Source: Fidelibacterota bacterium (GTDB lineage: Bacteria > Pseudomonadota > Alphaproteobacteria > Rhodospirillales > Rhodospirillaceae). Taken from it: a DNA stretch of 64,000 nucleotides. Position 1 is the stretch's first letter; each line of letters begins with the position of its first letter. The DNA is taken from contig CANJLF010000004.1 in the NCBI GenBank assembly GCA_947475295.1, positions 1-64,000 of the forward strand, in the 5' to 3' direction. The position numbers and the translations under genes were made by a program. Shown one piece after another: positions 1 to 12,626 of this stretch. The notes under the pieces are model-generated. The model had not been told where the DNA came from. It did no database searches and saw nothing but the letters and a program-made list of their open reading frames with translations.

Positions 1-66
1 ATCAACTCGGATCTCTACGACACGTTCGGCCGCACCTACCGCGCGGGCGTACGCTTCAAGATGTAA
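1..66 (+). CDS. TonB-dependent receptor, C-terminal end only
   Basis: The window opens inside a gene. The last 22 codons read INSDLYDTFGRTYRAGVRFK plus M and then TAA. The pattern N-x-LYD-x-x-GR-x-Y-x-AG-x-RFK-M is the usual last beta-strand of TonB-dependent outer-membrane receptors, ending in the aromatic/hydrophobic residue needed for BAM-mediated insertion. Such receptors import siderophores, cobalamin or glycans across the outer membrane using TonB energy. The ligand cannot be guessed from the tail. A rho-independent terminator follows at 116-149. A diverged copy of this same tail lies at 2634-2699. Confidence 0.75.
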   Translation: MNSDLYDTFGRTYRAGVRFKM

Positions 67-115
67 CTTCGCGAAATCCGCGGCCGGGCTTAGGTCCGGT
101 ACGTAAAGACAGAAA

Positions 116-149
116 GCCGGCCATTGCTTCACGCAGTGGCCGGCGTTTT
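116..149 (+). terminator. Rho-independent terminator of the TonB receptor gene
   Basis: A perfect 8-bp stem (GCCGGCCA at 116-123, TGGCCGGC at 137-144) encloses a 13-nt loop and is followed by G and four T. It lies 50 nt after the receptor stop codon. A related but imperfect copy sits at 2741-2777. Confidence 0.8.
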
Positions 150-385
150 ATATTTCTGGAGCGGGCGCAGCGCTTAAACCCAGCAGGTCAATACCGCCGG
201 GGCGACACTATATTTAGTCTAATATATGATTTCATTAAGAAATGTGGCGTGCGAGGAGAAAGAAGCTACCATAGTAGCCCAAGTCGCGAAGACAAATGGG
301 TTGAAGTCCATTCTGGATTTGGGTGTGGTAAGGGAGGTTTGAAACGAATAGACAGGAAATCAGCAACGCTCACACACCAGACCCG
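150..385 (+). other. Intergenic region upstream of the first GT41 gene
   Basis: No gene was recognised here. The stretch around 205-245 is clearly AT-rich against its surroundings and is the likeliest promoter area for the following gene, but no convincing -35/-10 pair stands out. A purine-rich AGGGAGG at 331-337 is too far (about 49 nt) from the ATG at 386 to act as its ribosome binding site. The reading frame is closed by TAA at 329 and offers no ATG, GTG or TTG between that stop and 386. Confidence 0.4.
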
Positions 386-2587
386 ATGGCCGACAGCACA
401 CCCGTAATGCCTCAAGATGCTCTCGCTCGGGCACTCGCGCTGCATCGCGAAGGCAATTTAAATGAAGCGCAGCGCCTCTATCGGGCGATAGTGAACGCGG
501 ATCCGGCTCACTTCCTCGCGTTGCAAATGTTGGGCGTTATCGCCCACCAAACGCACGACGCGCAGCTCGCGGTGACGCTGATAGATAAAGCCATCGCCGC
601 AAACCCCCGCGAAGCCACGGCTCACTTTAATCGCGGCCTGGCGTTAGCCGAACTCCGACGCTTCGATGACGCCGCCGTTAGCTACGGCAACGCCCTCGCG
701 CTTAATCCGAATTTCGCCGAGGCCTATTGCAACCGCGGAAACGCGCTGCAAGCCCAGGGGCGGATAGACGAGGCGCTGAGTGACTATCGCAAAGCCATAG
801 GCCTCAATTCAAATTACGCCAATGCCTGGCATAACGAAGGCGCCGCGCTTTTTACGCTCAAACGCTATGACGAAGCGCTGACCCGGCTGGAGCGCGCGAT
901 CAGCCTCAACGACAGTGACGCCGAAGCCCACAACAGCATGGGAGGTGTTTTACATTCGCTCCATCGGCCGACTAAAGCTCTGGCGCATTATGATCGCGCC
1001 GTAAGCCTTCAACCCGGTGACCCGAAGATTTGGCACAATCGCGGCGTCACGCTATTGGAGATGAGGCGGCTTGACGAGGCCGTGGCCAGCTTCGACCAAG
1101 CGCTAAAGCTGAACCCAGAATCGTCCGAGACGCTGTTCGATCGCGCCGTTGCGCTCAATAAACTCGGCCGCACCGAAGAGGCCTTAGAGTCTTACCAGGC
1201 GCTCGTGCGACTTGATCCCGATTTTCCCTTCGCGGAAGGCCTGTTTTTGCACACCAAGATGCTGTGCTGCGATTGGCACCACGTGCAGACTCTTTATTCC
1301 GAGATCACCGCCAAGGTGCGTGCGCGGAAACCCGCCATGGAGCCCTACGGCTATCAAGGCCTATGCGACGACGAAGCGACTCTCAAAGTCTGTGCCGAAG
1401 TTTATGCGGCCCATAAATATCCCGCGGCGTCGAGGCTAGCCGCTACGCTCCTTTCAAGCCACGAGCGCATTCGCATCGGTTACCTGTCCGGAGAATTTCG
1501 CAGCCAAGCAACCTCCATTCTGATGGCGGAGCTTTTTGAACTTCACGACCGGGACCGCTTCCAGATTTTTGCCTTTGACAATGGCTGGAGTGACCAGAGT
1601 CCGCTACGCGCGCGGCTCGAAAAGGCGTTTGACGGAATTTTCAATATTTCCGGCATGAGCGATGCTGAAGCGGCATCGCTTATTCACCGCGAAGGAATCG
1701 ACATCCTCGTAAATCTGAATGGATATTTCGGCGAAGTCCGTCAGGGCGTCTTCGCGCAAAAGTCTGGACCGATCCAAGTCAATTACCTGGGCTTTCCGGG
1801 CACGCTCGGCGCTTCATACATGGATTACGTGATTGCGGACGAAACGGTTATCCCCGAGACCAGCCGCCGACACTACACGGAGAAAACCGTCTGGCTGCCG
1901 GACAGCTACCAGGTCAACGATCGGCGGCGGACAATCGCCGACAAGGTCTTTTCGCGCGCCGCATTGGGCCTCCCGGCCGAAGGTTTCGTATTTTGCTGCT
2001 TCAACAATACCTATAAAATCACACCGGACATATTCGGTGTCTGGGCCAGCATATTAGAAAAAGTTGACAACAGCGTTCTTTGGCTTTTGCGAACCAATCA
2101 TGCGGCAGCGCGGAATCTGACAAACGAGGCGCAGCAGCGAGGGATAGATCCGTCGCGGCTGATTTTTGCTGACTATATGCCGCTCTCCGATCACCTCGCG
2201 CGTTACCGCGCCGCCGGTCTTTTTCTCGATACGCTTCCCTATGGTGCCCATACAACGGCCAGCGATGCACTTTGGGCGGGACTGCCGGTTTTAACCTGCA
2301 CCGGGAACACTTTCCCCGGCCGTGTCGCGACAAGTTTGCTGAAGGCCATCGGACTCCCGGAGATGATTACGGAGACGCCTCAAGCCTACGAAGACTTGGC
2401 TATCGCGCTTTCCCAGGACCCCGCGCGCCTCGCTTCTATAAGACAGAAGCTCGCGCAAAACCGCGCAACAGCGCCGCTCTTCGACACACCACGGTTCACC
2501 AGACACATCGAAGATGCTTTTTTGCAAATGTATGCCCGCGCGCAGGCCGGACTGCCGCCCGATCATATCCGCGTTGTTCCGCAATAA
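386..2587 (+). CDS. TPR-repeat GT41 (SPINDLY/OGT-like) glycosyltransferase with altered active site
   Basis: A 733-residue protein. The first ~280 residues are about eight 34-residue TPR units (for example AEAYCNRGNALQAQGRIDEA). The C-terminal ~370 residues match the O-GlcNAc transferase/SPINDLY catalytic fold (GT41): QVNYLGFPGT, FCCFNNTYKITP and LDTLPYGAHTTASDALWAG are all present. GT41 enzymes transfer a sugar from a nucleotide donor to Ser/Thr of protein targets chosen by the TPR superhelix. Here the segment that normally reads D-F-x-x-H-P-x-x-H-L reads GEFRSQATSIL, so the catalytic-face histidine is Gln374, the Pro is Ala375 and the second His is Ile378. The paralogue at 2778-5096 keeps both histidines. 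The enzyme may be inactive or altered, possibly a binding protein. There is no clear Shine-Dalgarno at the only available start. The gene sits between two copies of a receptor tail. Confidence 0.88.
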   Translation: MADSTPVMPQDALARALALHREGNLNEAQRLYRAIVNADPAHFLALQMLGVIAHQTHDAQLAVTLIDKAIAANPREATAHFNRGLALAELRRFDDAAVSYGNALALNPNFAEAYCNRGNALQAQGRIDEALSDYRKAIGLNSNYANAWHNEGAALFTLKRYDEALTRLERAISLNDSDAEAHNSMGGVLHSLHRPTKALAHYDRAVSLQPGDPKIWHNRGVTLLEMRRLDEAVASFDQALKLNPESSETLFDRAVALNKLGRTEEALESYQALVRLDPDFPFAEGLFLHTKMLCCDWHHVQTLYSEITAKVRARKPAMEPYGYQGLCDDEATLKVCAEVYAAHKYPAASRLAATLLSSHERIRIGYLSGEFRSQATSILMAELFELHDRDRFQIFAFDNGWSDQSPLRARLEKAFDGIFNISGMSDAEAASLIHREGIDILVNLNGYFGEVRQGVFAQKSGPIQVNYLGFPGTLGASYMDYVIADETVIPETSRRHYTEKTVWLPDSYQVNDRRRTIADKVFSRAALGLPAEGFVFCCFNNTYKITPDIFGVWASILEKVDNSVLWLLRTNHAAARNLTNEAQQRGIDPSRLIFADYMPLSDHLARYRAAGLFLDTLPYGAHTTASDALWAGLPVLTCTGNTFPGRVATSLLKAIGLPEMITETPQAYEDLAIALSQDPARLASIRQKLAQNRATAPLFDTPRFTRHIEDAFLQMYARAQAGLPPDHIRVVPQ

Positions 2588-2633
2588 AACGGACTAGAGA
2601 AGTTTATTATCAACACCGCATAGCTCGCATCCG

Positions 2634-2699
2634 ATCAACTCGGGTCTCTACGATGCGTACGGCCGCGTGTTCCGCGCGGGCATGCGCTTCAAGATGTAA
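2634..2699 (+). pseudogene. Remnant TonB-dependent receptor C-terminus (duplicated tail)
   Basis: Twenty-two codons, INSGLYDAYGRVFRAGMRFK plus M and TAA, align without gaps to the receptor tail at 1-66. I count 10 mismatches in 66 bases. Many of them fall in first or second codon positions but keep the strand pattern. No receptor body precedes it: the GT41 gene ends 46 bases upstream. It is therefore a leftover 3' end, followed by its own copy of the terminator. Confidence 0.7.
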
Positions 2700-2740
2700 G
2701 GGTCCGCAGCCGGGTTTAGGCCCGGCCGACAGAAACCGAA

Positions 2741-2777
2741 CGCCGGCTATTGCTTCATGCAGTGGCCGACGTTTTTT
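2741..2777 (+). terminator. Terminator copy after the receptor remnant
   Basis: The arms CGCCGGCTA (2741-2749) and TGGCCGACG (2763-2771) pair with one mismatch and one G-T wobble. The loop TTGCTTCATGCAG closely resembles that of the 116-149 terminator, and six T follow (2772-2777). It can end transcription from the 386-2587 gene. The oppositely oriented GT41 gene stops exactly at 2778, so the hairpin may act in both directions. Confidence 0.65.
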
Positions 2778-5096
2778 CTAAGAAGCGACGTGAATATCTT
2801 CCGGCGGCTGGTCCGCCTGGTAACGCTCATACATCGCGGCATAGGCCGCCTCGATATGCCGGGCGGTAAGTCCGACATTGAACAGCGGCGCGGTCGCGCG
2901 ATTCTCCGCAAGCCGACGCTTGATGTCGGTCAACAGCCGGGGCTCGGTGGCGAGAGCGACAGCGCGCGTTTCATAGTCTTCCTCCGTCGCGGTAATCAGC
3001 TCGGGTAAATCGAGCGCGCCGAGAATGCTTGCCCCCACCCGGCCGGCGAAGGCTTCGCCCCTGCAGGTCAAAAGCGGCAATCCCGTCGAGAGCGCATCGC
3101 TGGCGGTGGTGTGTGCATTGTAGGGCAGCGTATCCAGAAATAAATCTGCGGCACGTTGACGTGCGAGGTGCTCATCCTGAGGCGCCCTGCCTGCGAAAAC
3201 CAAACGGTCGGGTGTAACGCCGCGGCGCTCGGCCTCACGACGCAGATTGACCGCCGCCGTAGGATTGTCTTCCAGCAGCCAGAGCACGCTGCCGTCGACG
3301 CGCTTGAGTATCCGCATCCAGATATCGAAAATTCCGGGTGTGATCTTGAAGGTATTGTTGAAGCAGCAGAAAACAAAACCGGCCGGCGGCAGGCCCAGTT
3401 CTTCCCGGGAAAAAACCCGTTCGCTGGCGATGCGCGACGTATCGTTCGGCTGATAGCTGTGCGGCAGATAGACGACCTTCTCAGCCGTGTGACGCCGGGC
3501 CTCGTCGGCGATCACGGTTTTGTCGGCGATCATATAGTCGTAAGCGGCGGAGCCCATAGTGCCGGGATAGCCCAGGTAGTTGACCTGGATGGGCGCGGCC
3601 TGCATGGCAAAGATAGCAGTACGCGCGGCACCGGTATGGCCGGCAAGATCGACGGCGATGTCGATCTCGAGCGCCCGGGCTTGAGCGGCGACATCCATGT
3701 CGGATACCCCGCGCACATCGATGAATTTGTCAAAAGCGCTTTGCAGGCGCTTGCGCATCGGGTCTTGCGTATCGGGGCCGTAGGAAAAGGCGGTGATCTC
3801 GAGCCGTTCGCGACTATGAGCTTCGATCAACCCGACCGCCAAATGAGCCACCGGATGCTCACGGAAATCCATGGAAAAATAGCCGACGCAGATTTTTTCG
3901 CGCCGCCCCCGTTTCGCGATGGGCCCCAGCGTAAGGTCGCGCGGCGAGACCTCCGCCGTCCAAAGCTCCGCCGCCCGGCGGTGCAGCGCGGCGGAGTCGG
4001 TGAGCGTGAGAACGTGAAAGGGTGCCGCGACTCTTTTGCCGCGACCGATCTTGTCGGCGATCGCGGCGACGTCTTGATCGTAGTCCTGCCAATCGCAGAT
4101 CTGCATCCTGGCGTGAAACCGCGCGCCATAAATACCGGCATAGTCGGGATCAATGGCAAGGATTCGGTCGCAGTCCGCAGCGGCTTCAGCGGGACGACGC
4201 ATCTCGCTCAGCAGATTGACGCGGTTACTGTAGGCCGCTATGAAATCGGGCTTGAGGCCGATGGCCGTGCTATAGGCCGCCAGCGCGGCATCGTTTTGCT
4301 GAAGCTCGTTCCAGGCGATGCCCCGGCTGTTGTAGACCTCGGCGTAGTCGCTTCGGATCTTGATGGCCTTGGCATACTGCTCAATAGCCGCCGGAAGCTG
4401 CCGAAGGTCTGCGAAAACCTGGCCGCGCGCATGGAACGCCTCGGCGTGTGCGGGATTGAGACTCGTTGCCTTTTCGAAATCGTTCAACGCCGCCGGATAG
4501 CGCTTCAATGCATACAGGGCGAGACCGCGATTATAGTAGACGCCGGGGAAGTTCGGCATGAGCGCGATCGCTTTATCGAAACTGGCGACGGCTGCCGGCA
4601 GGTCCATGAGGTCTTTGAGCGCGTTGCCGCGATTATTGTAGGCATCGGCATATTTCGGATTGAGTTCGATGGCCTTGTCGTAGCTGGCAATGGCGGCCTT
4701 CAGGTTCTTCATTCCCTTGAGGGTATTGCCGCGATTGTTGTAGGCCTCGGCGAAATCCTTCTGCAGCTGAATGGCTTTGTCATAGCTCGCCAGTGCCGCC
4801 TTGAACTGTTTGAGTTCGCGCAAGGCATTGCCGAGATTGAAATGAGCGTCGGCGACTTTCGGATCAACCGTGACGGCACGGCCGATCAGGTTGACTGCTT
4901 CGTCAAAGCGGCCTGATTGCGCCGCGATGACTCCCGCAAAGTGCAGCGCGTGGAAATTGCGGGGCTGGAGTTTGATGACGTCCTGGTAAATTTTCCAGGC
5001 CTCACCCACCTGCCCTCTCTTATGGTGGGCCAGTCCCTCCTGAAGCATGATTACGATGCGGGAGGGCGGACCATTGGGTGGAGACTGTGGCGCCAT
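2778..5096 (-). CDS. TPR-repeat GT41 (SPINDLY/OGT-like) glycosyltransferase
   Basis: A 772-residue protein with about nine consecutive TPR units (residues ~15-325, recurring AxAYxNRGNxLK pattern), a linker and a GT41 catalytic region. The active-site segment MDFREHPVAHL keeps both conserved histidines (His414, His418). QVNYLGYPGT, CCFNNTFKITP and LDTLPYNAHTTASDAL are intact, so catalysis is plausible. The expected reaction is transfer of a nucleotide-activated sugar to Ser/Thr of TPR-bound proteins in the cytoplasm. The sugar (GlcNAc or other) and the target cannot be read from sequence. It starts 47 nt after the lpxB stop on the same strand and may be co-transcribed with the lipid A genes. 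It converges on its paralogue at 386-2587. Confidence 0.9.
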   Translation of the reverse strand: MAPQSPPNGPPSRIVIMLQEGLAHHKRGQVGEAWKIYQDVIKLQPRNFHALHFAGVIAAQSGRFDEAVNLIGRAVTVDPKVADAHFNLGNALRELKQFKAALASYDKAIQLQKDFAEAYNNRGNTLKGMKNLKAAIASYDKAIELNPKYADAYNNRGNALKDLMDLPAAVASFDKAIALMPNFPGVYYNRGLALYALKRYPAALNDFEKATSLNPAHAEAFHARGQVFADLRQLPAAIEQYAKAIKIRSDYAEVYNSRGIAWNELQQNDAALAAYSTAIGLKPDFIAAYSNRVNLLSEMRRPAEAAADCDRILAIDPDYAGIYGARFHARMQICDWQDYDQDVAAIADKIGRGKRVAAPFHVLTLTDSAALHRRAAELWTAEVSPRDLTLGPIAKRGRREKICVGYFSMDFREHPVAHLAVGLIEAHSRERLEITAFSYGPDTQDPMRKRLQSAFDKFIDVRGVSDMDVAAQARALEIDIAVDLAGHTGAARTAIFAMQAAPIQVNYLGYPGTMGSAAYDYMIADKTVIADEARRHTAEKVVYLPHSYQPNDTSRIASERVFSREELGLPPAGFVFCCFNNTFKITPGIFDIWMRILKRVDGSVLWLLEDNPTAAVNLRREAERRGVTPDRLVFAGRAPQDEHLARQRAADLFLDTLPYNAHTTASDALSTGLPLLTCRGEAFAGRVGASILGALDLPELITATEEDYETRAVALATEPRLLTDIKRRLAENRATAPLFNVGLTARHIEAAYAAMYERYQADQPPEDIHVAS

Positions 5097-5143
5097 GATC
5101 GGATACTAGCGCGCGAGCCGTTTGAATAACACAGCAATATCAA

Positions 5144-6307
5144 TCATATAGGTGGCCTACTCAGAAGCGACAAGACCGTCTGCGCGGCGCGCCGGCTGGG
5201 CCTCTCGCCGCCCGGCAACAGTTTCGACAGGGCGGCGGAAAAATCCGCGCGCTGGGCGACGCGGCGCATCTCGTCGCGCATCAGCAATCCGAGGTCATCG
5301 GCGAGCACTTCCGGACGGCAGCGGGCTTGCAGGCGTTCGGGCACCGCTTCATGCTCAACCAGAATATTGACGAGGTTGACATGGCGCGTGCGCACGAAGA
5401 GCTTGAATATGAGATAGGAGAGCGCATTCACACGGTAGGCGATGATATGCGGAACGCCGGCCAGCGCCAACTCTAAGGACACCGTGCCCGAGGCCGCCAG
5501 CGCAACATCGCAGGCGGCGAAAGCATCGCGGCGCTGATCCGCTTCCATGACCACAGTCACCGGCGCGCTCCACCCGTCCGCGGCGGCATAAACCTCGTGG
5601 GCGACGGTATCCACCGTCGGCATGACGACATGAAGATTTGGGTATCGCTGGGCGAGGCGCGCAATGGTGTCCTTGAACACCGGCAAGAGGCGTGTCACCT
5701 CGCTGCGGCGGCTGCCGGGCAAAATACCGATAACGCGCCGGTCGGCGGCGATACCGTGACGTTTGCGGAAGGCCGCGCCGTCGCCGTGACCGAAGCCGCT
5801 CTCCATCACCGGATGGCCGACCCAGGTCGCCGGCAGTCCGTATTTGGTAAAATAGGGCGGCTCGAAGGGCAGCAGCGTCATCAGGTGATTGATCCAGCGC
5901 GCCAGCTGCTTGGCGCGCGCCGGGCGCCAAGCCCAGACTTGCGGCGCAACATAACGCACGCGCGGGATCGGGCTTTGCCGCTTCGTCAGGCGCTCATGGA
6001 TGCGCCCGGTGAATCCCCAGGAGTCTATTGTCACCAGAATGTCAGGCCGCTGTGTTTCAATATCGGCCAGCGTCGCCTTGACGCGCTTTAAAACCATATG
6101 CGCCTTAGGCAGAACTTCGAAGATCCCGAGCAGCGCCATGTCGCGCACGTCAAAAAGGCTCTGCAAACCCTGCGCGGTCATCAGTGGACCGCCGACGCCG
6201 GCAAAGCGCACCTGCCCAGCGGTTTCTTCGCGCAACGCGGTCATCAGCATCGCACCCAATTGATCGCCGGACGGCTCGCAGGCAATGAGATAAATCAGCG
6301 GTCCCAC
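5144..6307 (-). CDS. lpxB: Lipid-A-disaccharide synthase LpxB
   Basis: LpxB (387 residues, GT19) joins UDP-2,3-diacylglucosamine and lipid X to form the lipid A disaccharide at the inner face of the inner membrane. The N-terminal ACEPSGDQLGA (residues 9-19), VAPQVWAWRPARAK (about 120-133) and GILPGSRRSEV (about 194-204) are family signatures. The start codon is GTG, five bases after the lpxI stop, so translation is probably coupled. LpxI makes lipid X, one of the LpxB substrates, from the UDP-diacyl sugar, which makes the adjacency functional. The length is normal. Confidence 0.96.
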   Translation of the reverse strand: MGPLIYLIACEPSGDQLGAMLMTALREETAGQVRFAGVGGPLMTAQGLQSLFDVRDMALLGIFEVLPKAHMVLKRVKATLADIETQRPDILVTIDSWGFTGRIHERLTKRQSPIPRVRYVAPQVWAWRPARAKQLARWINHLMTLLPFEPPYFTKYGLPATWVGHPVMESGFGHGDGAAFRKRHGIAADRRVIGILPGSRRSEVTRLLPVFKDTIARLAQRYPNLHVVMPTVDTVAHEVYAAADGWSAPVTVVMEADQRRDAFAACDVALAASGTVSLELALAGVPHIIAYRVNALSYLIFKLFVRTRHVNLVNILVEHEAVPERLQARCRPEVLADDLGLLMRDEMRRVAQRADFSAALSKLLPGGERPSRRAAQTVLSLLSRPPI

Positions 6308-7170: not shown

Positions 7171-7966
7171 TGCCGTTGCCGGCGACGGGCGTGCAGATCG
7201 GCCGCGAAGAATCTTCGCGGATAAAGTTAATGATATCCATCACGCCGGCGTGAGCGCTGAACAGATCGGCGACTTCGATCAAGCGTTCAGCCATGGTGCC
7301 GCCTTGCGAGAACAGCAAACCGTAAGCGGTGCGCAAGGAGCGAATATCCTCGCGGGAAAATCCCCGCCGCCTGAGGCCGACGATATTGAGCCCGGTCAGC
7401 CGCGCGCGGTTGCCCATGGCCAGCGCGTAGGGAATCACGTCCTTATCGACGCCGGTCACACCGCCGATCATGGCGTGTTTGCCGATGCGAACATATTGAT
7501 GCACGCCCGACAGTCCGCCGATATTGGCGTATTCGCCCACATGCACGTGGCCGCCGAGCGCAACGCTGTTGGTCAGGATAACGTGATCTTCAAGTACACA
7601 ATCGTGAGCCACATGGCAGCCGGCCATGAAAAAGCTGTGATTGCCAACGCGGGTTTCCATGGATCCCTGCGCCGTACCGACGTGCATGGTCACATGCTCG
7701 CGGATCACATTGTGATGTCCGATGGTGAGCCGGGTGGGCTCGCCCTTATAACTGAGATGCTGCGGCGACAGTCCGAGCGAAGCAAAAGGATGGATCACAG
7801 TGTGCTCGCCGATTGTGGTGTGGCCGTCGATAACCACATGCGAGAGGATACGCACCCCCTCGCCCAGCACGACATTAGCGCCAATCACGCAGTAGGGACC
7901 GATCTCGACATCACGCGCGAGAGTCGCGCCTTTATCGACCACCGCGGTCGGGTGAATTTTCGTCAT
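7160..7966 (-). CDS. lpxA: UDP-N-acetylglucosamine acyltransferase LpxA
   Basis: LpxA (268 residues) is the first enzyme of lipid A synthesis, putting a 3-hydroxyacyl chain on O-3 of UDP-GlcNAc in the cytoplasm. The left-handed beta-helix hexapeptide repeats start at once (IHPTAVVDKGATL). The catalytic His is in GCHVAHDCVL (His121, equivalent to E. coli His125). The start MTKIHPTAVV at 7966 was chosen because it begins at the normal family N-terminus. The frame is open further upstream into fabZ, but that extension is low-complexity and arginine-rich and is not protein-like for this family. A GTG 18 bases upstream is an alternative. Confidence 0.95.
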   Translation of the reverse strand: MTKIHPTAVVDKGATLARDVEIGPYCVIGANVVLGEGVRILSHVVIDGHTTIGEHTVIHPFASLGLSPQHLSYKGEPTRLTIGHHNVIREHVTMHVGTAQGSMETRVGNHSFFMAGCHVAHDCVLEDHVILTNSVALGGHVHVGEYANIGGLSGVHQYVRIGKHAMIGGVTGVDKDVIPYALAMGNRARLTGLNIVGLRRRGFSREDIRSLRTAYGLLFSQGGTMAERLIEVADLFSAHAGVMDIINFIREDSSRPICTPVAGNGNGG

Positions 7967-7995
7967 CTGAGGGGATGTATCCACGCGTATGACCG

Positions 7996-8460
7996 TCAGG
8001 AGTCCATGATCATGGCGGTATACACGGCCTCGGCCACGACCGTGTCGTCGACGCGGGCTTCGCCGCTGAATTTCCAAACATTCGCGCGCTGGCGCTCTTT
8101 TCGGCAATAGAGGCGCAGCTGATCGCCCGGCAGCACCGGTTTGCGGAAACGCGCATTGTCGATCGACATGAAATAGACCAGCTTGCCCTCGGCTTCCTTA
8201 CCGAGCCACGCCACAACAATGACCGCCGCGGTCTGCGCCATGGCTTCGACGATGAGCACGCCGGGCATCACCGGACGCTCCGGGAAGTGACCTTGAAAAT
8301 GCGGCTCATTGGCGGTGACGTTCTTGAGGCCGACGGCCGACTCTCCGGGCACGACATCGACCAGCCGGTCGATCAATAAAAACGGATAGCGATGCGGAAT
8401 CATCGCCATGATCCGGTCGATATCGATGGTCAAAGGCGTTTGTGTTGGCTGTCCGTCCAT
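7996..8460 (-). CDS. fabZ: 3-hydroxyacyl-ACP dehydratase FabZ
   Basis: FabZ (154 residues) dehydrates (3R)-hydroxyacyl-ACP in fatty acid elongation. It competes with LpxA and LpxD for the same hydroxyacyl-ACP, so its place between them balances phospholipid against lipid A synthesis. The hot-dog-fold signature [16 protein letters not shown] carries the catalytic His58, and Glu72 follows in VEAMAQ. ATG start. A 100-nt spacer separates it from lpxD. Confidence 0.96.
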
Positions 8461-8491
8461 GGCCGATATCCCGTCAAGGTATTCCTGCTGG

Positions 8492-8535
8492 AGTCCTGCT
8501 GGACTCTGGGGACCAAGGGGAGCGTCCTGCTCCCC
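8492..8535 (-). promoter_or_regulatory. Two small hairpins in the lpxD-fabZ spacer
   Basis: The spacer holds AGTCC-TGCT-GGACT (8492-8505, 5-bp stem) and a stronger GGGGAGC-GTCCT-GCTCCCC (8517-8535, 7-bp stem). No T-run follows on the minus strand, so a standard terminator is unlikely. An mRNA stability or processing element between lpxD and fabZ fits better. The function is inferred only. Confidence 0.35.
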
Positions 8536-8560
8536 ATCCGCTCCACTACTGGTTTTACGG

Positions 8561-9571
8561 TTACTTGTCGCGCCGGGTCAACCGCGACAAGGCGGCAATC
8601 TCGCGCCAAAACTGGCGAATTGGCCGCGCCGGATAGCCCATGACGACCTCGCCGGGCCCAATATCGCGCATAACCCCGGTTTTGGCGGCTATTTGGGCCC
8701 CGTCCCCGACCGTAACATGGTCGGCCAGTCCCACTTGGCCGCCCACAACCACGCCGTCGCCGATTTTGCAGCTCCCGGCAATGCCGGCCTGGGAGACGAT
8801 AATGCAGCGGGCGCCGATTTCGACGTTATGGGCGATTTGCACCAGATTATCGATCTTGGTGCCGGCGCCGATGACCGTGTCCCCGGCAACGCCGCGGTCG
8901 ACGGCGCTATTGGCGCCGATCTCAACATCGTCCCGGATGAGCACACGCCCCAGCTGCGGCACTTTGCGATGGCCGCCCGGGGTCGGCACAAATCCAAAAC
9001 CATCCTGACCGATTTGCACGCCGGGGTGCAGAATGACGCGGTTGCCCACCAGGCAATAGCTCAAAGTCGTATTGGCGCCGATCCTGCAATCATGGCCGAT
9101 GACGACACCCGGACCGATCACGGCATTGGCGCCGATGACCGTACGCGCACCGATCGCAGCACCGGCGCCAATCACGGCGCCGGGCGCTATGACCGCATCA
9201 GCCGCAAGTACAGCGTCGGAGGCGATGTTGCCGGATTGAGCCACAGTCGGGGAGGTTTCAGGATAGAACAGCGCGGCGATCTCGGCATAAGCGCCGCGCG
9301 GATCGGCGGCCAGCAGCACGGGGCAGCGTGAAACGTGCGCCGCCAGTTCGGCGGTGGTCACGCACGCGCCGCACTGGCTCGCGGCCAAGGCAACCACGTA
9401 GGAAGGATCGGCGAAGTAGACGATATCGCCCGCGGTCGCGGTATCTATCGTGCCAACATCTTTGATCACCCGATCGGCATCGGCACCCGGCGCAAGCCGG
9501 GCGCCACAGCGCCCGGCAAGGTCGGCCAAACTGAAAGGCCCGGCGCGCCGATAGAACCGGGGATCGGGCAT
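8561..9571 (-). CDS. lpxD: UDP-3-O-acylglucosamine N-acyltransferase LpxD
   Basis: LpxD (336 residues) adds the second hydroxyacyl chain (N-2) in lipid A synthesis. It has an N-terminal uridine-binding domain followed by many hexapeptide repeats (residues ~110-320; [20 protein letters not shown] is typical). The catalytic His is in QIAHNVEIG (His248, matching the AHN motif of E. coli LpxD). ATG start, four bases after the skp stop. The length is typical. Confidence 0.96.
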
Positions 9572-10250: not shown

Positions 10251-12626
10251 TCAGTTGAAACGGTTGCCGAAGTTGACACGGAAATGGCTGGTTTTATCGA
10301 AACTCTGCGCGTTGAAAATGAACGGAGAATAGTCGAGTGAAATGATGCCCACGGGTGAAGTCCACTCGACACCGATGCCGGCGGAGCCGCGGATCGCACG
10401 GGAGTCGAAAAACGCGACCCCGCTATCCTTCAGGGCTTTCGGCGGACCAATGACGCCCCAATCGTTGAACAGCTTGGTCTTGATGCCGGCTTCCTTGGGA
10501 ATGCCCAGTGGAACGCGGAGCTCAAACGACGCCGTCGCCATCCAATCGCCGCCGAGTGAGTCGAGCGTTACGGCATCGCGCGGGCTCGCGCCGAAATCTT
10601 TGAAGCCGCGCAATGAGTAGCCGCCCAGCTGATTGCGCTGATAAATTTTGACGTCGCGGCCAAGGCCGACGATATAAGTGCCCGACACGCTCGAGGAGAA
10701 GATCCAGCCGGCGAGAGGCTCGGCGTAAAGCGCCGCGCCCGCACTGCCCTTTACATAACGCTCGTTGCCGCCGAACCCGGCCAGCTCGGTCGACCCGGTC
10801 ACGAAATACCCGCCGGTCGGATCGATGACGTTGTTACGCCGGTCGTAGGTGAGGCTCTGGCTGAGCACCGATGAAATCGCGGTGCCGGACTGCTCGCGTA
10901 CGTACTGCGATACGGAACTGCTTAAGCCCGTCAGATTGGTCGCGGTCAGACCGTAGGTGAAGCGCTGGTAAAGGTATTCATTGTAGCTGAAGCCAAGGCG
11001 CAGACTGCCTCCGTAGTTGTTCGAGGTAAAGCCGCTCTGCGCCTGGTAGTCGGTCTTTTGGGCGAATATATCGGCGCCGGCCACAAGATGGCGGTCGAGG
11101 AAATAGGGCTCGGTGAAGCTCAAACTCACCTGAGACTGCTGCTGCGCGATGCTGAAATTGGCTGTCAGGGCCTGGCCCTTGCCCAGCAAATTGCGCTCCG
11201 TGATGCCGACGTCGAACAAAGCGCCGGTCGCGCTGGAATAGCCAACGCCGAAGCTGAGTTCGCCGGTGGACTGCTCCTCGACCTTGGCCGTCAATATGGT
11301 GCGGTCGGGATAAACTTCCGACGGCGTATTATCGATCTTGACCGTGTCTTCCTTGAAGTAGCCCAGGTTCTCGAGGCGCGTCTTGGAGCGGCGCACCTTC
11401 GCGGTATTGAATGCGTCGCCTTCCACCAGCCTGATCTCGCGGCGGATCACCCGGTCGAGGGTACGGTTGTTGCCCTGAATATCGACACGTTCGATGAACA
11501 CGCGCGGACCTTCCACAACCTGGAAGATGACGGAGGCCGTTTTGTTGGCGGGATCGCGCTGCACGCGCGGGTGCACTTCGACGAAAGCGTAGCCGGCGTC
11601 GCCGGCGGCGTTGGTAATGGCGTCGACGGTATCTTCGATCTTCTTGCCGTTAAACCAATCGCCGGTTTGCGGAATGACGGCGGATTGAAGCGTTTCCTTG
11701 GGCAGATCCTTGACGTTGACGTCAAGATCGACCTTGGCAAGCTTGTAGCGCGGGCCTTCCTTGACGGTGAAGGTCATATAGAAGTTTTCGCGGTTGGGCG
11801 CGAGCTCAGCCACGGCCGAGATCACTTCAAAATCGGCGTAACCTTCCTGCACATAATATTGGCGCAAGAGTTCGCGGTCGTAGTTCATCCGGTCCGGATC
11901 GTAGGTATCGTTAGAGGTGAACAGGCGCCACCAACGCTCTTCACGGGTCAGCACCACGCCGCGCAGGTCGCTGTCGTTGAACGCCTCGTTGCCGACGAAA
12001 TTGATGGTGCGGACGTAGGTCGGCCTGCCTTCACTGATTTCGAACGCAACGTCGACGCGGTTTTGCGGCAGCTCGATGACCTTGGGCTCGACGCGCGCCG
12101 CGAAGCGGCCCTTGCGCCGGTAGAGCTCGAGAATCTTCTCAACGTCCTGCTGGACTTTGGTGCGGGTGTAGACGACACGCGCGCGCAGCACGGTTTCTTT
12201 GGTCAGATCCTCGGTCTTGATCTTGCTGTTCCCTTCCATCGAGATGCGGTTGATGATCGGGTTCTCAACCACGCGGATCAGCAGAATATTATTCTGACGA
12301 ACGATCTCGACGTTGGCGAACAGGCCGGTGGCAAAAAGGTTCTTCAGCGAGCGGTCGATGCGCACGGGATCGAAGGTGTCGCCCTCGCGCAACGTGAGGT
12401 ACGTTCTGACCGTTGCCGGCTCGATACGCTGGCTGCCCTGGACTTGAATGATTTCGATGATGCCGTCGGCGGAGGCTTGAGCGAACGCACGGGGTGCGGG
12501 CATCAGCAATACCGACGCCGCGACGCCAACCACCGCAAGCAAGGCGACAAGGGCGCTCTGGAACGTCCATGCATGCCGCTCCTGGCGCGCTTTACAGCGT
12601 CGAACCGACCGGGCTGCCAAACTCAT
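10251..12626 (-). CDS. bamA: Outer membrane protein assembly factor BamA
   Basis: BamA (791 residues from the chosen start) is the Omp85 insertase that folds beta-barrels into the outer membrane. A signal peptide ends near APRAFA-QAS. Five POTRA domains follow (IIEIIQVQGSQRIEP, INRISMEGNSKIKTED, YVRTINFVGNEAFND and others), then a 16-strand barrel ending in a Phe-rich last strand (HFRVNFGNRF). The ATG at 12626 was chosen for its GGAAGG Shine-Dalgarno seven bases upstream. The frame stays open to 12779, but that part overlaps the end of rseP and is not conserved-looking. It lies between rseP and skp, the standard order. Confidence 0.96.
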   Translation of the reverse strand: MSLAARSVRRCKARQERHAWTFQSALVALLAVVGVAASVLLMPAPRAFAQASADGIIEIIQVQGSQRIEPATVRTYLTLREGDTFDPVRIDRSLKNLFATGLFANVEIVRQNNILLIRVVENPIINRISMEGNSKIKTEDLTKETVLRARVVYTRTKVQQDVEKILELYRRKGRFAARVEPKVIELPQNRVDVAFEISEGRPTYVRTINFVGNEAFNDSDLRGVVLTREERWWRLFTSNDTYDPDRMNYDRELLRQYYVQEGYADFEVISAVAELAPNRENFYMTFTVKEGPRYKLAKVDLDVNVKDLPKETLQSAVIPQTGDWFNGKKIEDTVDAITNAAGDAGYAFVEVHPRVQRDPANKTASVIFQVVEGPRVFIERVDIQGNNRTLDRVIRREIRLVEGDAFNTAKVRRSKTRLENLGYFKEDTVKIDNTPSEVYPDRTILTAKVEEQSTGELSFGVGYSSATGALFDVGITERNLLGKGQALTANFSIAQQQSQVSLSFTEPYFLDRHLVAGADIFAQKTDYQAQSGFTSNNYGGSLRLGFSYNEYLYQRFTYGLTATNLTGLSSSVSQYVREQSGTAISSVLSQSLTYDRRNNVIDPTGGYFVTGSTELAGFGGNERYVKGSAGAALYAEPLAGWIFSSSVSGTYIVGLGRDVKIYQRNQLGGYSLRGFKDFGASPRDAVTLDSLGGDWMATASFELRVPLGIPKEAGIKTKLFNDWGVIGPPKALKDSGVAFFDSRAIRGSAGIGVEWTSPVGIISLDYSPFIFNAQSFDKTSHFRVNFGNRFN

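Follow-up and report, generated by a model that had tools for sequence, protein, structure and literature searches.

A TonB-dependent receptor remnant and its predicted terminator between two convergent GT41 genes in a Rhodospirillaceae genome

Results

The DNA analysed here (the window) is a stretch of 64,000 nucleotides of contig CANJLF010000004.1 from a Rhodospirillaceae genome (GCA_947475295.1, 2.7 Mb in 43 contigs, the smallest of 6372 bases). This genome, termed G000, is compared with 18 others of its genus, which gives a set of 19 genomes, G000 and G001–G018. Contigs are labeled by genome and number (G016:C13), and C1, C4, C8, C13, and C39 without a genome label belong to G000. The window starts at the first base of C4 (171,888 bases). 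Its first part contains the ends of two TonB-dependent receptors, R1 (ending at 1–66) and R2 (ending at 2699), together with two genes of the glycosyltransferase family GT41, GT41a and GT41b, and lpxB (Table 1). R2 is represented by a short C-terminal remnant and its 3' flank, and the origin of this remnant is the subject of this work.

Table 1 Features in the first part of the window
Feature	Position	Strand	Description
R1 end	1–66	+	Last 21 codons and stop of a TonB-dependent receptor, clipped by the contig start
R1 3' flank	77–149	+	Terminator-like hairpin at 116–144; right end of the repeat common to C39
GT41a leader	150–385	+	One weak sigma-70-like site at 202–230
GT41a	386–2587	+	Intact TPR + GT41 (OGT-like) glycosyltransferase, 733 aa
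Junction, GT41a stop to remnant	2588–2611	+	Receptor similarity begins at 2610–2612
R2 remnant	2610–2699	+	Last 29 codons and stop of a receptor, no body
R2 3' flank	2700–2777	+	Terminator-like hairpin at 2744–2768, now between the convergent GT41 genes
GT41b	2778–5096	-	Second TPR-GT41 gene, convergent with GT41a; PF13844, E 5.6e-78
lpxB	5144–6307	-	Conserved right-hand anchor of the gltA–lpxB site

The open frame of the R2 remnant comprises only 33 codons, 29 of which are C-terminal receptor codons without plug or barrel, and it is free of stops and frameshifts. When the 1025-aa receptor of G016:C13, which carries PF00593 and PF07715, was used as the query, C4:2610–2696 matched its residues 997–1025 with 79% identity. 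The receptor similarity thus starts 22–24 bases behind the GT41a stop. This agrees with a preliminary description of the locus in that only a tail survives in the second copy, with its start moved from 2634 to 2610. The full-length receptors with an R2-like ending that this description suggested looking for are present in G016, on C13 and on C14 (1050 aa). The R2 tail is found once in G000. Judged from these matches, the second copy is what remains of a receptor. A second and more decayed receptor C-terminus, with three stops and 30% identity to the G016:C13 receptor, is located at C1:206493–206900.

The two receptor ends are diverged direct copies with similar hairpins, as previously described. 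Positions 1–66 and 2634–2699 are identical at 56 of 66 bases, with 10 mismatches and no gap, and the flanks 77–149 and 2703–2775 share 79% identity, also ungapped. The local alignment score of the copy regions is 87, whereas 2954 randomly paired stretches of the window reach 42.5 at most. With a divergence of 15–21%, the event behind the copies is not recent, in line with the earlier view. The tail pair forms the longest direct repeats within 1–5200, the remaining ones having 24–31 bases; all other repeats there are short and weak (20–32 bases). Among the tail differences, seven of ten fall at codon positions 1 and 2 and three at position 3, a number too small to use.

Both flanks contain predicted intrinsic terminators on the + strand, at 116–149 and 2744–2776, each composed of a GC-rich stem-loop followed by a U run. 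The first hairpin, folded as 113–150, has a free energy of -25.8 kcal/mol and the second, folded as 2741–2778, of -18.6 kcal/mol, both with a T run behind; on the - strand the second hairpin reaches -14.6 kcal/mol. It begins 157 bases after the GT41a stop and lies directly before the GT41b end (2778), at the place where G018 has the gltA terminator. The R2 hairpin should therefore serve GT41a, and service to GT41b is doubtful because the T run follows on the + strand only.

A search of G000 with 1–152 returned 16 matches at E ≤ 10, three of which were better than 0.1 (C4:1, C39:1–149 at 100%, and C4:2634–2775). Among 63 receptor 3' flanks, those of R1 and R2 are reciprocal best matches with a score of 44.5, leaving aside self-matches and the identical C39 copy; scores of 1500 random pairs have a 99th percentile of 34.0 and reach 55.5 at most. 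The next-best match for both is the flank of the G016:C14 receptor (29.5 for R1 and 30.5 for R2). A two-hairpin 3' flank is alike in R1, R2 and, judged by eye on the alignment, G016:C14.

The R1 end, whose positions 1–66 translate as INSDLYDTFGRTYRAGVRFKM followed by the stop, lies at a break of the assembly. C39 begins with the same 149 bases as C4 and diverges from it at base 150, directly behind the terminator. When all 86 contig ends of G000 were compared and shared starts of at least 15 bases were counted, 34 pairs were found, of which 20 share exactly 149 bases and none shares more. The 149 bases are therefore the overlap length of the assembler, and 1–149 represents the final stretch, one overlap in length, of a repeat that leads into C4 at one place and into C39 at another. 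A common start of overlap length followed by divergence is what a collapsed assembly repeat leaves, and in this respect the C4/C39 pair shows no difference from the 19 other end pairs at assembly-graph breaks. The extent of 1–149 is set by the assembler overlap at a contig start, and its interpretation as a stand-alone duplicated tail was rejected.

R1 is a TonB-dependent receptor that occurs at least twice in the genome, and the first copy is its clipped end. Its body, which would include plug and barrel, is not found in the assembled bin. Since the smallest contig has 6372 bases, the bin would lack any collapsed receptor of roughly 3 kb, as observed. R1 is probably full-length, with a body lost from the assembly because it is a repeat. 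The first copy is probably no bare tail, its body appearing to be missing from the assembly only. Because it is identical to the C39 copy, R1 seems to have undergone recent copying or homogenisation.

At the second R1 site, C39 carries a monooxygenase gene. In G016, soxC is located upstream of the counterpart of this gene with a cytochrome between them, and a like cytochrome ends at the same place in G009 and G001. In G000, soxC is found on C13 and is followed there by other genes, which prevented a reconstruction of the second R1 site. C39 also encodes a creatininase-family protein (PF02633, locus 7598–8752), on the same contig as a receptor. A creatininase-family protein on G016:C13 (locus 10426–11406), again with a receptor on the contig, is 75% identical to it, and in our reading the N-termini of both resemble signal peptides. 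In addition, four repeat families, perhaps insertion sequences, each occur at 8–10 contig ends of G000 (for example C13e/C15s/C20s/C23s/C25s/C26e/C35s/C38e/C3e/C41s).

The neighbourhood of lpxB was compared in relatives. lpxB is detected in 17 of the 19 genus genomes including G000, and gltA–lpxB neighbourhoods were fetched from 11 of them (G018, G016, G011, G007, G001, G015, G003, G008, G009, G013, and G010). gltA and lpxB are convergent neighbours in the first eight; in the other three the contig ends first, at lpxB in G009 and G013. The spacing between the sense codons of the two genes is 59 bases in G003, 70 in G011, 437 in G008, 546 in G007, 948 in G016, 1620 in G001, and 2345 in G015. 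According to labels read from translations, the gap holds a methyltransferase-like open reading frame (ORF) in G016, and a sulfotransferase-like and a small lipoprotein-like ORF in G015. In G018, the nearest relative by lpxB (88%), the gap harbors a relative of GT41b (65%, G018:C217), 72 bases from gltA by sense codons, and the gltA terminator is directly followed by the end of this gene.

The + end of C8 in G000 carries the gltA stop and, 785 bases further on, a receptor start, with the same terminator as in G018 behind gltA, and the contig ends 191 bases into the receptor ORF. Residues 10–63 of the receptor N-terminus are 72% identical to the G016:C13 receptor (65% in another comparison). 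Aligned directly, the C8 leader scores 25.0 with the G016:C14 leader (best of 50 shuffles 19.5) and 17.0 with the G016:C13 leader, barely above shuffles (16.5); blastn against 395 fetched loci at E ≤ 0.01 gave no match for it. Elsewhere in the bin there is no full match to the last 250 bases of C8, and no further entry into the repeat was detected. C8, R1, and C4 probably form one locus, because gltA and lpxB are convergent neighbours in eight of the 11 loci, G018 has the order gltA, terminator, GT41b, and this terminator is common to C8. Relative to G018, R1, GT41a, and the R2 remnant are seemingly extra, because there the gltA terminator runs directly into the GT41b end.

Tandem receptors are present in the genus. 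Nine contigs were surveyed, chosen mostly because their matches lie about 3 kb apart, with receptors counted by motif, and seven of them contain head-to-tail receptors. Six carry 2–4 whole receptor frames in this arrangement (G012:C36, G002:C50, G001:C32, G015:C4, G008:C36, and G008:C26), with up to four in G012:C36 and G002:C50. G001:C76 has one whole receptor and one cut by the contig end, while G004:C74 and G013:C171 have one receptor each by the motif used. On G005:C208 (locus 3–1030), a receptor end with its flank is joined to the C-terminal 169 residues of another receptor, and this piece shares 80.6% identity with the final member of the G012 array. This is the same kind of relic as R2, without a GT41 gene, with a chimera possible in a genome that is 71% complete and in about 400 contigs.

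Outside G000 the tail has 102 matches, of which the loci of 28 were inspected. In 27 of these the end frame is open to the locus limit, and the remaining one is the truncated G005 copy. The tail follows an unrelated gene in none of the 28, so the finding that the preliminary description had named as speaking against it, a tail and terminator behind many unrelated genes, was not made. In G012:C231, G013:C163, and G002:C131, a GT41 gene (49–50% to GT41b) immediately precedes a whole receptor in the same orientation; these are three of 12 stretches fetched, all three chosen because their matches are near each other.

GT41a is predicted to encode a regular protein with tetratricopeptide repeats (TPR) and a GT41 domain. 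TPR families match its N-terminal part (best E 2e-52), and the predicted catalytic GT41 domain is matched in two stretches by PF13844 (E 1.5e-88). The protein also matches human OGT (7yea, E 2e-127) and XcOGT (2jlb, E 1.6e-87, over 202–719). Its closest relative in the genus (72%) lies at another place, on G018:C412, and the flanks of the two genes align no better than shuffles. A chemoreceptor-like gene beside this relative has no match in G000, in a search that was uninformative. The fraction of GC at third codon positions (GC3) is 0.647 in GT41a, 0.717 in GT41b, and 0.753 in both lpxB and bamA. Against the same 395 loci, 150–386 matched only its own copies, and no receptor leader is recognisable in it. 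Promoter-like sites number four in 1–6000, with 2.2 expected. As for signs of mobile elements, no long repeat other than the tail pair occurs in 1–5200, the GT41 genes fill most of 386–5096, and the side of the R1 body is unassembled.

Discussion

It is rather likely that a second receptor, R2, stood at this locus and lost its body; R2 would once have been whole at this very spot. According to this explanation, the gltA–lpxB site of this lineage holds a TonB-dependent receptor and GT41 genes that most of the relatives examined lack there. R1 would be present and probably full-length, its body having fallen out of the assembly as a repeat, and R2 would have stood 3' of GT41a. About 97% of the R2 gene would then have been lost, by deletion or by exchange with a segment carrying GT41a, leaving the 29 codons and the terminator. 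R1 would keep its own strong terminator and GT41a its own leader, the R2 terminator would now end GT41a transcription, and the remnant codons would be passengers beside it. The former tandem receptor pair proposed in the preliminary description gains support from the R2-type receptors of G016, the tandems of the genus, the G005 relic, and the reciprocal flanks, but not from the tree of the tails or from the coding tails, which are no closer to each other than to others.

Several observations weigh against the loss of a whole R2 beside R1. R1 is identical to the C39 copy over 149 bases, whereas R1 and R2 differ by 15%, and R1 may therefore be a later arrival at the site. Tail 1 and tail 2 (56/66) are no closer than tail 1 and G010:C95 (57/66) or tail 2 and G016:C13 (56/66), and in a poorly resolved tree of tails and flanks they are not sisters, tail 2 grouping with the G016 receptors at 66% support. 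No R1-R2 or R1-GT41a-R2 arrangement was seen at gltA–lpxB in the 11 loci fetched from relatives, and G018 has no tail match, by gain here or by loss there. None of the 86 contig ends pairs with the C8 end and the R1 body is outside the bin, so the join of C8 to C4 rests on synteny; in G010, the contig runs 1.76 kb beyond lpxB without gltA. Finally, the second hairpin has no T run behind it in the direction of GT41b.

How R2 lost its body is a separate question. The preliminary description had the receptor replaced by the glycosyltransferase. Loss of the body remains the favoured reading, and replacement is only one of the two ways in which the present arrangement could have arisen. As a possible though clearly less probable variant contained within the favoured explanation, the promoter and body of R2 in a tandem R1-R2 would have been exchanged for GT41a in one recombination or insertion event. 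Tandem receptors in the genus, GT41a and its leader filling the place, the lowest GC3 of the four genes in GT41a, and the location of its G018 relative elsewhere are consistent with such an exchange. A 5' leader of R2 is nevertheless not detectable in 150–386, and GT41 genes stand beside whole receptors elsewhere, so that a later deletion suffices by itself. Such an event, extending from directly after GT41a into the final R2 codons, is at least as simple as replacement, because GT41 genes are found upstream of whole receptors in three genomes and no receptor leader is seen in 150–386.

That R2 was never whole here is unlikely, slightly more so than direct exchange. A receptor end with its terminator would have been duplicated, or would have come with GT41a, for example by integration of a circle bearing a receptor tail through a single crossover. 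Such an origin fits a short remnant that ends cleanly with a terminator, as well as flanks that are reciprocal best matches. On the other hand, the divergence of 15–21% means that a duplication would not be recent, a truncated array member is known elsewhere (G005:C208), and the other repeats within 1–5200 are short and weak. We give very little weight to an assembler chimera at the junction 2588–2612: the genome is repeat-rich and a receptor end does break the assembly at window base 1, but tail 2 differs from tail 1 (10/66) and is found once, so no misleading 149-base overlap with a receptor is seen, and GT41b is followed by lpxB as in G018. Least probable of all is that the 29 codons are retained because they are themselves functional, encoding a small peptide or serving GT41a as a regulatory element at its 3' end. 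The frame free of stops and the shared two-hairpin flank might speak for this, but a stretch of 29 codons is too short for constraint to be shown, and the seven of ten differences to R1 at codon positions 1 and 2 point, if anything, to relaxed constraint.

The locus is a case of ordinary gene and genome turnover, and decay of a receptor with retention of its terminator is, in our judgement, in itself ordinary. Compared with the tandem TonB-dependent receptors of the genus (PF00593/PF07715), R2 ends like the 1025–1050 aa receptors of G016, differing from them in having no plug and barrel, and the body of R1 is unassembled. As a speculative extension, which we consider improbable, receptors of the genus might turn over as gene-plus-terminator units, with terminators acting as recombination seams through which an unrelated gene, for example GT41a, could acquire an existing terminator upon receptor loss. 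This idea comes from the divergence of C4 and C39 at base 150 behind the terminator and from the R2 terminator abutting GT41b. The case has modest weight as a clear instance in which the probable loss of a receptor left behind a predicted, usable terminator, in a genus with tandem receptors and many GT41 genes. It also carries a warning, as what looks like a "duplicated tail" at the edge of a window can be an assembly-graph overlap. Moreover, repeated receptor genes can drop out of bins, and such genomes may contain more receptors than are counted.

GT41a resembles the O-GlcNAc-transferase-like proteins human OGT and XcOGT in combining a TPR array with a GT41 domain; unlike them, it is one of many paralogues in its genome and is known here from sequence. 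FlmG of Caulobacter, a soluble TPR-glycosyltransferase for flagellin, likewise has an N-terminal TPR and a C-terminal GT-B-like domain (PMC7591256), although the term "GT41" does not occur in that text. FlmG illustrates one job that TPR-glycosyltransferases can have (PMC7591256). G000 contains 31 PF13844 stretches, often two per gene, a count based on only 19 scored candidates out of 35. There are 7–30 such stretches in each of the 18 other genomes of the genus, and two of 14 control genomes were positive.

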